64,000 nucleotides of DNA, taken from assembly GCA_036476315.1 (NCBI GenBank), contig JAZGBI010000098.1:32001-96000 (forward strand). The letters run 5' to 3'. Source of the stretch: Candidatus Neomarinimicrobiota bacterium. GTDB lineage: Bacteria; Fidelibacterota; Marinisomatia; Marinisomatales; S15-B10. This document shows positions 46,356 to 52,020 of the stretch, one piece after another (position 1 is the stretch's first letter; each line of letters opens with the position of its first letter). A program made the position numbers and the translations under genes. The notes beneath the pieces are model-generated. The model worked only from the letters and a program-made list of their open reading frames with translations, was not told the DNA's origin and made no database searches.

Positions 46356-47273
46356 CTATAATCCAAAGTAGATCATGGTGCGGACAGCCAGGCTGTTCAG
46401 GTTCGTCGCAGGGGAATCACTGATGGGTTTGCGGTCGTCTGTCTTCCATGTCCCCTGCCCTACCTGCGCGAGATTGAAGCCCACACTTAACCTTATTCCC
46501 ATCCTGTCCAGAAACTGAAGCTTCACCGCAAGATACGGCTGCACATTGAAGAAGGTTGCCGTCCGGGATGTCATGCTCCTGGTAGTGGAAATCGTGGGAA
46601 AAACATTCGCTTCAACATAGTCAAAATCATCCTGATTCACAAGAGTGTCACCATTGACGTCATTGACGAGGTAGTAACCGCCCGAAAACTGTTCCTCCCA
46701 CGAAGGACTCCCGGAACTCTGAGTAATATTCAAGCTCAAACGCCCCACTCCCATCAGCACGCCAGTGGAAAGTTCAAGTCCTCTCAAAAGGGGGAACACA
46801 TACTCCACCGTGGCCCCACTCATGAGAATCATGATCTTCGCCTGTATGTCGGGAGCGAGATTTCCCGTCTGAGGATCAGGATCATATTCCCGCCGTTCTT
46901 CTCCCGCCTCGTAATCCCCACTACTGTCCGCGTCGAGAAAAAGAATGATGCTCTGTTTTTCGCTGATGAACGAGGAGCCCACACCCGCATAGCCTCCAAG
47001 ACGCCACCGGCCCGTCACATTTGAAAAGCCTTCCCCGCCATTGATCACGAAGGGCGAAGTGAACTCTTCGGTATCCAGGCCCAGACCAGCCGTGTCTCCT
47101 ACGCTTCCCAGCAACTCAAACCCCTCCAGCTGTCCAACCTTGGTAAAGAGAAACATGCGGCTGAACCCCACACCGCCACCGTAAAACGATTCCGGCATAT
47201 AGAGATCATCTTGCGCTGGTGCAAAAACGTGTATAGTAACTATGAGGATCAGCATTCTATTCATTGAGCCCAT
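46356..47273 (-). CDS. Predicted outer-membrane protein
   Basis: 305 residues, ATG preceded by GGAGGTAAGA. The signal peptide ends FAPA before Gln. The mature chain has barrel-like strands (YGGGVGFSRMFLFTKVGQ, later MGIRLSVGFNLAQVGQG) and a Ca-binding-like loop, DADSSGDYEAGEE, plus DVNGDTLVNQDDFD, both resembling dockerin/EF-hand loops. It ends SLAVRTMIYFGL with a terminal aromatic-Gly-Leu. Its stop is directly followed by the protease start, so they are one operon. Function unknown. Confidence 0.65.
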   Translation of the reverse strand: MGSMNRMLILIVTIHVFAPAQDDLYMPESFYGGGVGFSRMFLFTKVGQLEGFELLGSVGDTAGLGLDTEEFTSPFVINGGEGFSNVTGRWRLGGYAGVGSSFISEKQSIILFLDADSSGDYEAGEERREYDPDPQTGNLAPDIQAKIMILMSGATVEYVFPLLRGLELSTGVLMGVGRLSLNITQSSGSPSWEEQFSGGYYLVNDVNGDTLVNQDDFDYVEANVFPTISTTRSMTSRTATFFNVQPYLAVKLQFLDRMGIRLSVGFNLAQVGQGTWKTDDRKPISDSPATNLNSLAVRTMIYFGL

Positions 47274-47337
47274 TCTTACCTCCGGTAGGATTCGTTAATT
47301 TTCAATTTAAACTTCGCCTTTCCTAAGTACCAAGAGA

Positions 47338-48016
47338 TTATTCCGTCATCTTCGTCGCCAGACAGCTTCTCCGGGCTCCCAGGCCTCCCTTCATGCCCTG
47401 TCGAAAAGAAAATAGGTTGGCTAATGCCATGATCATAAGAATCGTTCCCATGATCTGCTTCTCAAAACGTTCAAACAACTCAAAGCCCCTGAACTCCAGT
47501 CCCCGGCGAACAATATCAACAAGGAATAAAATACCTGCTACCGTTACGGTAACATAGGTGAGCCCAACTACGGCGATTCCACTCCACCCCGCCATACTTG
47601 CCCTGAAAAAATAAGTCTCGATTTCGATGCACGGTGTGAAAAACATGCTGACCAATATTGCCGTGGTTGCCGCAAAGCTGGAACGGCGGGCAGCTTTGCC
47701 CAGGTGAATATCTCCATGCGAATGGTTCCGGAGATTATCCCGGATTCCCCCCATAAAATAGACTGGCCGCCGCAAGGCTCATGGCCTCCACGCTGATGGA
47801 TGCCAGCTTCATGCCCAGCAGACCCACGCCAACTCCGATGATCATCGTGCTCAAACTGTGTGACAGGCCGGCGAGTGCCGCCACCCGTCCCAGTCTGAAA
47901 CGCCCCCACCCTTCGGACTTTCCTATCACCGCGATGGGCATCCACTGGTTTGGCATAAGAACATGCACCATGCTCAGAGCGACGCTCCCCACAACTATTG
48001 CGCTGATCATTGGCAT
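47338..48016 (-). pseudogene. NicO/RcnA-like membrane protein gene with a frameshift in a C6/G6 run
   Basis: Two overlapping frames join into one protein. The first, from 48016, has HVLMPNQWMPIAVIGKSEG and GLSHSLSTMIIGVGVGLLG, resembling nickel/cobalt exporters of the NicO type with His motifs, and stops soon after SLFYGGNPG. The other frame continues GGIRDNLRNHSHGDIHLGK and two to three membrane helices to 47338. The switch falls in a run of six C on the plus strand (47747-47752); five would restore one frame of about 225 residues. It may be a real mutation, a programmed slip or a homopolymer error. Confidence 0.6.
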
Positions 48017-48122
48017 CCCGGCACACCTATGACTTTTCCAACCGTTCTGCGGGAGACAACGACTTACTTACCCCACATGACGCTATCTCGTTCACAGAAA
48101 CCCAAACATGAGGCCCCAAAAC

Positions 48123-48320
48123 CTACCTCCCTTCGCTCCCCGTCCTGAGACCCTCGAAAAATTCGAGGAGCGCTCTTTCTGACACAAGCCATCGCCTGCC
48201 CAATTTCACTCCTTCCAATTTGCCCCTCTGCAGGTAACGCCGGATCGTCTTTTCATTCAGACCCAGCTCAGAGGCAATCTCCTCCACAAAATAGTACATG
48301 GTACCAAGAATCTCTTTCAT
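48123..48320 (-). CDS. Excisionase-like helix-turn-helix protein of the partition cassette
   Basis: 65 residues. YYFVEEIASELGLNEKTIRR, followed by YLQRGKLEGVKLGRRWLVSE, is the MerR-like/excisionase HTH (HTH_17) fold. Its ATG overlaps the stop of the ribbon-helix-helix gene by four bases. Third gene of the ParA-RHH-HTH unit; it may bind the centromere or regulate the cassette. Confidence 0.75.
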   Translation of the reverse strand: MKEILGTMYYFVEEIASELGLNEKTIRRYLQRGKLEGVKLGRRWLVSERALLEFFEGLRTGSEGR

Positions 48321-48589
48321 CCGCTTTTCCTCGCCCTTGCCTCCTCCCGCTTTTTCTGGAGTTCTGGTGGAAGAGCCTTTACCCTCTTCCCTCGGAAGAA
48401 TATCTTCAAGGCTTGTTCCACCGTACTGGAAATGGTGGCACCCGGTGTCCAGTGAGCGTAAGCCTGAACTTTATCAATTAGCTGCGGATCGAGCCAGTAG
48501 GTCATTCGCTCCCTTTTCTTACCCCCTTTTGCAGGCTTCCGCCGGGGCTTATCCTCCCGTTCAAAGGAAAAGTCTTTGAATTTGCTCAT
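48317..48589 (-). CDS. Ribbon-helix-helix DNA-binding protein, putative centromere-binding partner of ParA
   Basis: 90 residues: a basic, flexible N-terminus (DKPRRKPAKGGKKRERM), then a strand-helix-helix segment (TYWLDPQLIDKVQAYAHWTP, then SSTVEQALKIFF), and a basic tail. The layout fits small ParG/Omega-like partition proteins encoded just after a ParA. Its leader at 48593-48621 resembles the leader of the parA gene at 49414-49436. No ParB of the large type is near. Confidence 0.7.
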   Translation of the reverse strand: MSKFKDFSFEREDKPRRKPAKGGKKRERMTYWLDPQLIDKVQAYAHWTPGATISSTVEQALKIFFRGKRVKALPPELQKKREEARARKSG

Positions 48590-48592
48590 CTC

Positions 48593-48621
48593 TTAATCTA
48601 CCCTTTCTCACCCATTTGTCT
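48593..48621 (-). promoter_or_regulatory. Leader repeat copy 1, before the RHH gene
   Basis: On the plus strand TTAATCTACCCTTTCTCACCCATTTGTCT; the parts TAATCTACCCTT and CCATTTGTCT recur, closer together, at 49414-49436 before parA. Read on the minus strand the element ends AAGGGTAGATTA, so it also supplies the ribosome binding site of both genes. It may be an operator or part of a centromere-like site. Confidence 0.45.
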
Positions 48622-48635
48622 GCTCCACTGCGCCC

Positions 48636-49412
48636 CTAGTTCCATGTCTGTTTCAATACTTCTCGCGCGAGGGACAGAAAGTCGAGGGCACCCGGACTCT
48701 TCGACCGATAGGCCAGAACATCCTTGTGCTGAGCTGCTGCCTCCGTGATCGCCACCGTATTTCTGATGGCAGTATTGAAGACCAACTTCCCGAAATGCTC
48801 CTCAATCATCCCTCGACCCTCGACAGAAATTCTTCTTCTTGTATTGTACAGGGAAAGAATTATACCGCTTAACTTGACCCTCCTCGTCTGCTGCCGGAGT
48901 TTCCTCACCTCTTTCATGAGTTCAACAACGTTGCGCATGGCCAAATACTCCGTCTGCAAAGGGAGGAAAAATTCCCCTGTCATCACCAAAGCCGCCTGCG
49001 TCAGGTAACCCAGTGACGGGGGACAGTCGACCAACACAAAATCGTAGTCCGATAGATCACGCAAGCTCGAACGCAACTGGAAAAGATATTTCCGGCTCCG
49101 GTTGAAACGCATCAGTCTCCTGTCACCGGGTATGATATCCACTCTCTCTCCTATCCCCTCTCGTGCCTCTTCCCATGATGCGTACCCTGTCATCACGTCG
49201 TATATCGACGCCCCGTCCCCGAACGTCTCGGTGATAAAGGAAAGATTCGACTGCGGATCCAGATCAATCATCAACACCGAGTTCCGTCGAGCCTCATGCA
49301 CCGGAATCGACGCATCCACCCGTCTCAATCGACTTATCGCCGCCGCCAAGTTATGAACCGTAGTTGTCTTCCCTGTCCCACCCTTCGTCGATACGATACT
49401 TACTTTCCTCAC
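48636..49412 (-). CDS. parA: ParA-family partition ATPase
   Basis: 258 residues, GTG start at 49412. VSIVSTKGGTGKTTTVHNLA has the deviant Walker A motif (KGGTGKTT), SVLMIDLDPQSNLSF the second motif and YDFVLVDCPPSLGYLTQ the Walker B region, all as in ParA/Soj. ParA forms ATP-driven patterns on the nucleoid to move a DNA-bound partner. Small size, with no N-terminal HTH, and the RHH gene following after 46 bases make this a type Ib, plasmid-like partition cassette. Its presence on what looks like a chromosome suggests an integrated element or a chromosomal origin-linked locus. Confidence 0.9.
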   Translation of the reverse strand: MRKVSIVSTKGGTGKTTTVHNLAAAISRLRRVDASIPVHEARRNSVLMIDLDPQSNLSFITETFGDGASIYDVMTGYASWEEAREGIGERVDIIPGDRRLMRFNRSRKYLFQLRSSLRDLSDYDFVLVDCPPSLGYLTQAALVMTGEFFLPLQTEYLAMRNVVELMKEVRKLRQQTRRVKLSGIILSLYNTRRRISVEGRGMIEEHFGKLVFNTAIRNTVAITEAAAQHKDVLAYRSKSPGALDFLSLAREVLKQTWN

Positions 49413-49413
49413 T

Positions 49414-49436
49414 CTAATCTACCCTTCCATTTGTCT
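49414..49436 (-). promoter_or_regulatory. Leader repeat copy 2, before parA
   Basis: CTAATCTACCC, then TTCCATTTGTCT on the plus strand; partner of the element at 48593-48621 with a six-base shorter spacer. Read on the minus strand, the GGAAGGG part is the likely ribosome binding site of parA. Confidence 0.45.
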
Positions 49437-50123
49437 TCACGTCCCACAGTGTCCCCTCAGCTCCTTTGCCGACGATCCGTCTCCGGCCCAGGCCTTCCCC
49501 AATCTTCAGTCGAACCCCGATGCCATCGGAAGACACACTAAGTCCCTTTGTCCTATTTCGAGCCCCGTTGTCCGTTACGAAGACTCTTTATTCCCCATTA
49601 GACATAAGCAAAATTATTCGTTAACCCTGACACCTGAGCAGGAGCATCAATTATCAGTCATTTTCGTCCGTCAAACCCTCGCTCTTTTTCACCCTTCCGC
49701 CAGGCTCTATTTATCCGGCCTCCGTCACGCTCCTGACTCTACCAGAAGTGACCCGTCCCCACAGACCCGTTCCGTTCCACACTCAGGCCCCACAGGACGT
49801 TTAACACGTTTAAGTCGTCCTTCGCCTGAATGCAAGCTCGGCGGTCTGCCCACCGTACCCGACGATAAACTAGCGGTCATTCTAGTCCTGCGCAACAAAA
49901 AAATCACACCCTCATCCAGGTGGTCGGCCCTGCTTCTCGTTGCATGATCTTCCGACCTGTTGGTGATGACCCCATTGCGCGAATCTCTGCTGGACGATCG
50001 AAGGTTTGGGGAAATGTGGCTCTGCGAGGCTGCCGTTTTGGAGGTGTGGCAGGATATGTGAACCAGTTTTTGAAAGGGGGAGGGGAGCCGTCAGCCACCA
50101 CCGGTGATCACTTGTAGGATGAA

Positions 50124-50143
50124 TGTGGATAAATTGTGCATAA
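50124..50143. promoter_or_regulatory. Two adjacent DnaA-box-like nonamers
   Basis: TGTGGATAA at 50124-50132 is the exact complement of the consensus DnaA box TTATCCACA. Two bases later TGTGCATAA (50135-50143) differs by one base, in the same orientation. Two boxes are fewer than in a typical oriC, but they lie in the longest gene-free stretch of the window and close to a parA cassette. Confidence 0.45.
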
Positions 50144-50190
50144 GTAGGCCCAATTCGGTTGTTTCGGCCAATCCTGACCTAATTATTGTC

Positions 50191-50219
50191 TTGATTTTCA
50201 GCGAACCGCCGAATATATT
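50191..50219 (+). promoter_or_regulatory. Sigma-70-like promoter for the first repeat-protein gene
   Basis: TTGATT at 50191-50196, a 17-base spacer and TATATT at 50214-50219 fit a vegetative promoter well. The -10 lies inside the palindrome CGAATATATTCG, which could be an operator. The start codon is about 125 bases downstream. Confidence 0.45.
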
Positions 50220-50343
50220 CGCTTACAGAGGTTGAGAGGTAAGGGTTCTTACTATTGCTAGGCCAACTCTACAAGGGGAGGGGTTACGCCTTGGGCTTCC
50301 CATTGCGTCTCTGAAACCTCAAATAGACAGGTAGGGTGAAGAA

Positions 50344-52020
50344 ATGGTGTATTGTGCACGATTCCGAGGGATTCTGGCATTCCTGTCCGTGTTGTTTCTT
50401 TGCGGGTCCCTTTCGGGACAACAGGTAGTAGCTCTTAACGGAACGTACGATTTTGACGGGGACGGCCTGAGCGAGTTCTTAAGTATTGAGAAAGCTGGTC
50501 CTGGGGTGCCTTATTCGGAGGTTGCAGCCTACTATGAAATAGACGAGCAGGGATCTCACCTGCTCTTATGGGGATTCACCAGTTCTCGCCCGCTGATCGA
50601 TGCACGGATCGGCGACATGGACGGAAACGGGGCCCCCGAAATTATTGTCCTAACAGGGGGTTCCCTTCTCGGGAGTGGCGACAGTCCTTCGTGGCTTCAC
50701 TGGTTCCCGTGGGACGAAGACTCTTTCTCCGAAGGTCCAAGGATTGAATGGAGCGGCGAGCGTTCAGCCGGCAGTCAAAAACCCTTTGGTTTCACCATCA
50801 TCGATTCTGACAACGATAGCCGGGACGAAATCGCCCTCGCCGTGGGTAGTCCCAACCGTGAAATTCTTCTTCTGACCCTGAACGTCATGGCCGATGCCCC
50901 GCTTTTTGAAATTGCCCGTTCCCTCAGTTCACCTGCCGTCTCTTCGGGTTACGGCCAGATAGCTCTTTCCACTGTCGATCAGGACCGGGATGGATTCTGG
51001 GATCTTATGGCCATCATGAGGGAGCTGTCCACGCTTAAGGTTCAGATATTTTCCAATGAGGGGGGTGATCTTGTGGGAGGCCCTTCGTACGAGGAGGACA
51101 TAGCCCAGGTAAGTCCTCGGTTCTCGAGACTGGTGCAGAGTGCCATCAACACGATTGACATAGATCAAGATGGTACGCATACAGTCATTCTTCCGTTTGA
51201 AACCGGGAGTGCTGTTGCCATCAAGGCCTATTCGGACCGGCTTGCACTGGTTCCCGTGGAAGTCGAGGTCGCCTCCCTGTTTGCCCTACCCAAAACCGGG
51301 GTTGAAGAAACCGTCATAAACGAAATCCTTCTTGAGCGCGCGGAATCAGGAATTACCGGGATGCGCGTGAGAAAACTTGAATTGGAGGCAAAGCAACTGG
51401 AGGTCCCCACTGCGCCCGAAGAAGCCGTGGAGGTTCCGCCCACGGCCCCCCCTGCCAGAAAGGTGAAGCGGTTGGAGCTTACCGCTGTAGAGGATACTGT
51501 CTCCACGGAAGTACTGTCTGACGAGCTTCTCGACACAACCGGTCAGGCCGTTGTCGTTGAGCTCCCAGTCATCGAACGGGAAGTCTCCGAGGAAGTTGCT
51601 CCAGCCACACCAGGAAAGGTTCGCAAATTGGACCTCACCACAGTAGAAAAGAGAGCGGAAGCCCCCGCTCTTGCCCCCACTCCCGGTCTTCCAGCAGATG
51701 TTACCGCAACAGACACCGTCATGGCAGGAGAAACGTATACGCACTCGCTGGAGCCCGATGAAAAGAGGCAGCTGCACGCATTCAGACCTTCAACGCTTCC
51801 CTCCGGTGCTTTCTTCGATCCGCCAACGAGGACGATTGTCTGGACCCCTTCTGAAAATCAGGTGGGGGTGCATCGTCTTGCCTATGAAGTCGAATTTGAA
51901 GTGACAGGTGAGCGGGTCAATGTGGAAGAAGTGGAAGGAACGGGCGTCCAGGTCCTGTCCATAACTGAAACGGATACAGTTGAGCTTTACATTCTTGTGC
52001 GCAGTGAAATAGAGCCGTAA
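50344..52020 (+). CDS. Secreted FG-GAP-like protein with Ig-like C-terminus
   Basis: 558 residues, ATG preceded by AGGGTGAAGAA. The signal peptide ends GSLSG before Gln. Residues 30-330 contain FG-GAP-like Asp-rich loops (DFDGDGLSEF, GDMDGNGAPEI, DSDNDSRDEI, DQDRDGFWDL), as in calcium-binding propeller repeats. A Pro/Glu/Val linker (about 340-460) holds three copies of V-[RK]-[KR]-L-[ED]-L near residues 342, 374 and 427. The C-terminus is a single putative Ig-like (He-PIG) unit: LPSGAFFDPPTRTIVWTPSE. The next gene encodes a longer paralogue and starts with a one-base overlap. Probably a cell-surface or periplasmic scaffold. Confidence 0.75.
   Translation: MVYCARFRGILAFLSVLFLCGSLSGQQVVALNGTYDFDGDGLSEFLSIEKAGPGVPYSEVAAYYEIDEQGSHLLLWGFTSSRPLIDARIGDMDGNGAPEIIVLTGGSLLGSGDSPSWLHWFPWDEDSFSEGPRIEWSGERSAGSQKPFGFTIIDSDNDSRDEIALAVGSPNREILLLTLNVMADAPLFEIARSLSSPAVSSGYGQIALSTVDQDRDGFWDLMAIMRELSTLKVQIFSNEGGDLVGGPSYEEDIAQVSPRFSRLVQSAINTIDIDQDGTHTVILPFETGSAVAIKAYSDRLALVPVEVEVASLFALPKTGVEETVINEILLERAESGITGMRVRKLELEAKQLEVPTAPEEAVEVPPTAPPARKVKRLELTAVEDTVSTEVLSDELLDTTGQAVVVELPVIEREVSEEVAPATPGKVRKLDLTTVEKRAEAPALAPTPGLPADVTATDTVMAGETYTHSLEPDEKRQLHAFRPSTLPSGAFFDPPTRTIVWTPSENQVGVHRLAYEVEFEVTGERVNVEEVEGTGVQVLSITETDTVELYILVRSEIEP

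Follow-up and report, generated by a model that had tools for sequence, protein, structure and literature searches.

A ParA cassette of probable plasmid or mobile-element origin, with a leader repeated before two of its genes, in a chromosomal insertion of a Candidatus Neomarinimicrobiota bacterium

ParA proteins of type Ib partition systems are small and have no N-terminal DNA-binding HTH. In the sections of the source cited here, ParA is encoded in one cluster with an RHH-type partner, as in the ParF/ParG pair of TP228, and direct and inverted repeats located before the operon make up the centromere (PMC5016525). In plasmid pSM19035, the sites of the RHH protein overlap three promoters, those for ParA, for the RHH protein itself and for copS, and the same sites serve both repression and partition; at several loci they form runs of 7-10 consecutive heptads, and every gene has a transcript of its own, as described in the cited portions of two accounts (PMC9499535, PMC5016525). 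According to the relevant part of one of them, at least 4 contiguous heptads are needed for full stimulation of the ATPase (PMC9499535). The plasmid cassettes of Flavobacterium pA5BP1 (NZ_MN657160.1), Adhaeribacter, Tenacibaculum and Lawsonia encode a ParA of ~250 aa and then a small protein, as does the locus described here, and in pA5BP1 one repeat precedes both parA and the partner gene.

The assembly of Candidatus Neomarinimicrobiota bacterium comprises 2.6 Mb in 112 contigs, and the window, by which we mean the whole stretch of 64,000 nucleotides that was analysed, covers positions 32001-96000 of contig C98. The compact minus-strand cluster of parA, an RHH candidate and an HTH gene reported in the first-pass annotation was found in place as three ORFs. 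The parA gene (49412-48636) starts with GTG and encodes 258 aa, with the Walker A motif KGGTGKTTT at residues 10-18, so near the N-terminus that there is no N-terminal HTH extension, a likeness to type Ib; the protein matches AAA_31 in Pfam (E 7e-28), and its closest solved structures by sequence are ParA/Soj proteins. After a gap of 46 nt follows a gene for a small protein of 90 aa with a basic N-terminal arm (48589-48317), predicted to be RHH-type from a profile of partner proteins, and overlapping it by 4 nt is a gene of 65 aa (48320-48123) with an HTH_17/excisionase domain (Pfam, E 2.6e-12). The latter is of the generic HTH_17/excisionase kind, as are its relatives in the phylum at 27-44%. 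None of the three reading frames is broken, and the Walker A motif is complete. When the three genes were scanned for the defence system MADS, the HTH protein matched mad1 (E 1.9e-10) and ParA weakly matched mad8 (E 2.9e-4); the full gene set was not found and the assignment was rejected.

The earlier description of the cassette as plasmid-type is backed by the descent of its ParA. A tree was built from 39 hand-selected rows (one of the loci chosen for it had no usable ORF). There the window ParA joins all 15 plasmid and mobile-element ParAs with a support of 100/100, and a topology that puts it among the 12 chromosomal ParAs from the same phylum was rejected (p-AU 0.026). It fell on the same side (97/88) in a 90-row tree, from which loci without an ORF passing the ParA filter were dropped. 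Because its branch is very long (4.09), the placement is less sure than these support values suggest. Raw identity fails to separate the two groups: chromosomal ParAs from the window's phylum share about 42-49% identity with the plasmid-borne ParA of pA5BP1. No relatives of ParA were found in viral contigs. Some related cassettes adjoin a relaxase gene or a match to a TrfA-like initiator (at 21.0 bits slightly short of the 22-bit cut-off), and others lie near integrases and replication proteins, with integrase genes directly adjoining some of them.

The small protein also resembles the partners of plasmid ParAs, in further agreement with the plasmid-type label. Seven plasmid ParA relatives and two Desulfovibrionales loci each have an ORF of 76-190 aa next downstream, and a profile built from eight of these nine partner proteins, a set that did not include L049 or L144 (the Smac51 partner), had the window protein as its top match, with 25.7 bits (E 5.8e-7) against 10.2 bits for the best decoy among the window's other ORFs and 200 shuffled sequences. 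A two-sequence profile gave 12.7 bits for the window protein versus 4.2. The core of the protein resembles those of the pA5BP1 and Adhaeribacter small proteins, and the Geobacter partner protein has a sub-threshold match to RHH_1. A single-sequence AlphaFold2 model, of low confidence (mean pLDDT 55.8), predicts a strand at residues 26-33 and helices at 35-47 and 53-65, which is the order of the RHH domain; a Foldseek search with this low-confidence model returned nothing under 1e-3. The candidate has no match in Pfam, PHROG or NCBIfam, no relative by sequence among solved structures and no match of weight in plasmids and phages. Its gene was found in one of the 101 genomes searched, the window's own, and a phylum-wide search that admitted matches with E up to 1 did not yield a convincing second case. 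An apparent viral relative was rejected as a chance stretch within a long unrelated ORF; a search of viral contigs for relatives of one plasmid partner protein found none. From its sequence, the small protein is likely a ParB-like centromere-binding protein and repressor.

With a ParA of the plasmid and mobile-element lineage and a small partner encoded directly downstream, the cassette is, as judged from these predicted relationships, a member of the class of ParA/RHH pairs of plasmids and mobile elements. An RHH-type partner in the same cluster, as predicted here, would be a likeness to type Ib, but the array of direct and inverted repeats that the cited sections place upstream of such operons was sought and not found, and for this reason we do not file it as type Ib. 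The cassettes of pA5BP1, Adhaeribacter, Tenacibaculum and Lawsonia differ from it in lying on plasmids, in the letters of their AT-rich repeats and, in those examined, in having no adjoining HTH_17 gene.

As to whether the cassette is chromosomal or belongs to an integrated plasmid, a check proposed in the first-pass annotation, it was found inside a lineage-specific insertion of ~2.8 kb (47343..50180, junctions +/- about 10-20 nt), on a contig that is native on both sides. The insertion separates two divergent native genes, a porin-like gene (46356-47273) and an FG-GAP gene (50344-52020), whose homologues are divergent neighbours in relatives. The distance between anchors in the flanking genes is 210-372 nt in eight of nine relatives, 1324 nt in the ninth (G008) and about 3070 in the window, and most relatives show recognisable flanks of the empty site, at about 47277-47350 and 50170-50254 (weakly in G002 and G006); therefore, ~2.8 kb was gained between the two native genes. 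The cassette is absent from all nine relatives that hold both flanking genes in one locus, and its loss in all nine would be a less simple alternative. In G008, a different insertion of ~1 kb occupies the same intergenic site (L120, on contig C77 of that genome), so that this site tolerates insertions.

On its left side, the insertion carries a frameshifted membrane-protein gene (47338..48016, minus strand; overlapping frames 47735-48016 and 47338-47775), which has intact homologues in the same order elsewhere (52% in G013); this genome also carries a 38% paralogue of it, on contig C49, and the frameshift may be a sequencing error. About 700 nt of the insertion are without recognisable genes, and a search for a degraded gene in 49417-50178, covering five of six reading-frame pieces along with portions of the frames of the adjoining genes, gave no Pfam match. 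The segment 48001-50000, which takes in part of this gene-poor stretch, has an excess of C over G on the plus strand, with the strongest skew of the window (-0.274). Near the right end are two tandem 9-mers, TTATCCACA and TTATGCACA (50124..50143, minus strand), which we take to be DnaA-box-like by the presumed consensus; the window holds six such 9-mers versus about one in shuffles, and the same intergenic region of the nine relatives has none. They may represent the remains of a plasmid origin. Neither an integrase or recombinase within the insertion nor a clear target duplication was found. Overall, the cassette seems to be a leftover of a mobile element.

The letters TAATCTACCCTT and CCATTTGTCT, quoted in the first-pass annotation for a leader repeated before parA and the RHH gene, are exact at 49415-49436 before parA and recur at 48594-48621 before the RHH gene, 6 nt further apart. 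The likeness runs past the quoted letters over ~40 nt (49415-49454 versus 48594-48635). In the copy before parA (49415..49454, minus strand), the blocks AGACAAATGG and AAGGGTAGATTA adjoin and the leader ends 2 nt before the start codon; in the copy within the parA-RHH gap (48594..48635, minus strand), the blocks are 6 nt further apart and the end lies 4 nt before the start codon. A strict comparison of the 120 nt before parA with the 46-nt gap scored 18.5 (shuffle mean 9.8), a value reached by one of 2000 dinucleotide shuffles and by none of 1000 in a second run; comparing 120 nt with 120 nt gave 28.5 (0 of 2000 shuffles), with the RHH side overlapping the end of parA. A genome-wide search for more copies found the composite pattern exactly twice in 2.6 Mb and never backwards. 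This exact pattern, of a kind that misses diverged copies, is absent from the 243 other phylum genomes examined and from viral contigs, and within the window mismatched versions of a single leader block are no more frequent than expected by chance. Both leaders hold a tiny open frame from a shared ATG to a shared TAG (ATG GAA GGG TAG at 49415-49436 and ATG GGT GAG AAA GGG TAG at 48594-48621, minus strand), in which the 6-nt difference keeps the frame, possibly by chance. As candidate RNA elements the leaders were rejected: the window has no Rfam match and the leaders fold in an ordinary way (z 0.01 and 1.16).

Conservation of the leader among related cassettes, the lack of which the first-pass annotation had named as one part of a refutation, held in part for its layout and not for its letters, which are conserved nowhere searched. 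Repeats before both parA and the partner gene were detected in 3 of 10 relatives, namely Flavobacterium pA5BP1 (0/1000 shuffles), Deltaproteobacterium Smac51 (1/1000) and a Desulfovibrio MAG (12/1000), the other seven having no significant sharing; L039, L145, L181 and L182 were left out of this test, their gaps being minimal or overlapping or their upstream DNA too short, and in L190 the gap was measured to the next ORF rather than to an RHH homologue. Leaders at two promoter-capable places, together with the repeats that 3 of 10 relatives have in the corresponding positions, point to autoregulation, and by analogy with known systems it is plausible that, as proposed, the leader puts parA and the RHH gene under common control. 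The second proposed role, that of a centromere, fared worse: the leader occurs just twice, at a distance of ~820 nt, and the search upstream of the cassette turned up no iteron array of the kind that usually serves as centromere. Nor was an array of direct and inverted repeats seen upstream, where one leader lies, the other copy being internal. The delta-omega system of pSM19035, in the cited descriptions, combines ParA with an RHH protein, as is predicted for the cassette, and this protein has sites at the promoters of both genes, but there the sites are heptad arrays, whereas here, in a compact chromosomal cluster, each of the two genes has a single two-block leader. Because pSM19035, in that source, uses such arrays and needs at least four contiguous heptads for full stimulation of the ATPase, the two-block leader makes, by that measure, a plausible operator and a poor centromere.

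The reading we favour, with moderate confidence and from sequence comparison, is that of an integrated plasmid or mobile-element ParA/RHH pair whose RHH protein autoregulates via both leaders. The pair, with the added excisionase-like HTH gene, would have entered the chromosome within the ~2.8 kb insertion. RHH dimers would bind both leaders, each directly upstream of a start codon, and the bound protein would repress parA and, separately, the RHH-HTH pair, a dual repression that would keep ParA and its partner in proportion; the leader sites may have been the centromere on the ancestral plasmid. Against this reading stands the 6-nt difference in block spacing, which is awkward for a single rigid complex. 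We consider it unlikely, if still worth weighing seriously, that the repeated leader is merely a duplicated start region, a promoter and ribosome-binding site for each gene with no bound protein and no centromere role. Such a duplication would fit the ends of the leaders 2-4 nt before the start codons, the ribosome-binding-like block AAGGG in both, the presence of only two copies and the lack of an iteron array; however, the likeness extends ~40 nt upstream, beyond a ribosome-binding site, and the relatives and, as far as its cited descriptions go, pSM19035 place repeats at the same two positions.

Chromosomal ParB, noted earlier as absent, is indeed absent at the cassette locus but not from the genome: on contig C77 of this assembly a ParB (PF02195, E 1.7e-30; the only PF02195 match of the genome) adjoins a ParA, so that a normal parAB, which the first-pass annotation had named as the other part of a refutation, does exist elsewhere. 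The C77 ParA, of a Soj/Spo0J-type ParAB, is of the ParA family and 33% identical to the window ParA, but its partner is a ParB_N-domain protein, as is characteristic of chromosomal ParABS and lacking in the cassette, and the window ParA groups elsewhere in the tree. At the 29 loci of the relatives' best ParA matches (L005-L033), a ParB motif, counted with a simple motif, lies near ParA in 19 and not in 10, the latter mostly of family f15. The chromosomal parAB of the host rules out the cassette as the host's main segregation system and leaves its plasmid origin unrefuted; any segregation role in the present chromosome is probably lost or marginal. It is hard to credit that the chromosome has adopted the pair as a second segregation or cargo-positioning system, acting on a chromosomal locus or another cargo: that the frames and Walker A motif are intact while another gene of the insertion is frameshifted could mean selection, which is not measurable because the pair is single-copy, but the RHH gene occurs in 1 of 101 genomes searched, the host has its own parAB and no cargo gene is evident.

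We give still less credence to the possibility that the HTH protein, and not the RHH protein, binds the leaders, and that an integrative element, now lost, left the cassette as its control end; the HTH_17/excisionase domain of the protein and the integrase genes adjoining some related cassettes would suit such an origin, but no integrase was found in the insertion, and the relatives with repeats at the two positions have, as far as examined, no adjoining HTH_17 gene. Least probable of all is a second, chromosomal segregation pair in which two single-copy, two-block sites of variable spacing, one before each gene, would act as operator and minimal centromere in place of iterons.

The wider importance of such an integrated ParA/RHH pair would be small, the host having an ordinary parAB and the layout being already known from pSM19035. 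If our favoured reading is right, the locus would be a ParA/RHH cassette in a lineage where the other 100 relatives searched lack this RHH gene, marked as a lineage-specific insertion, and it would support repeats before both parA and the partner gene as a recurrent layout of ParA/RHH pairs.
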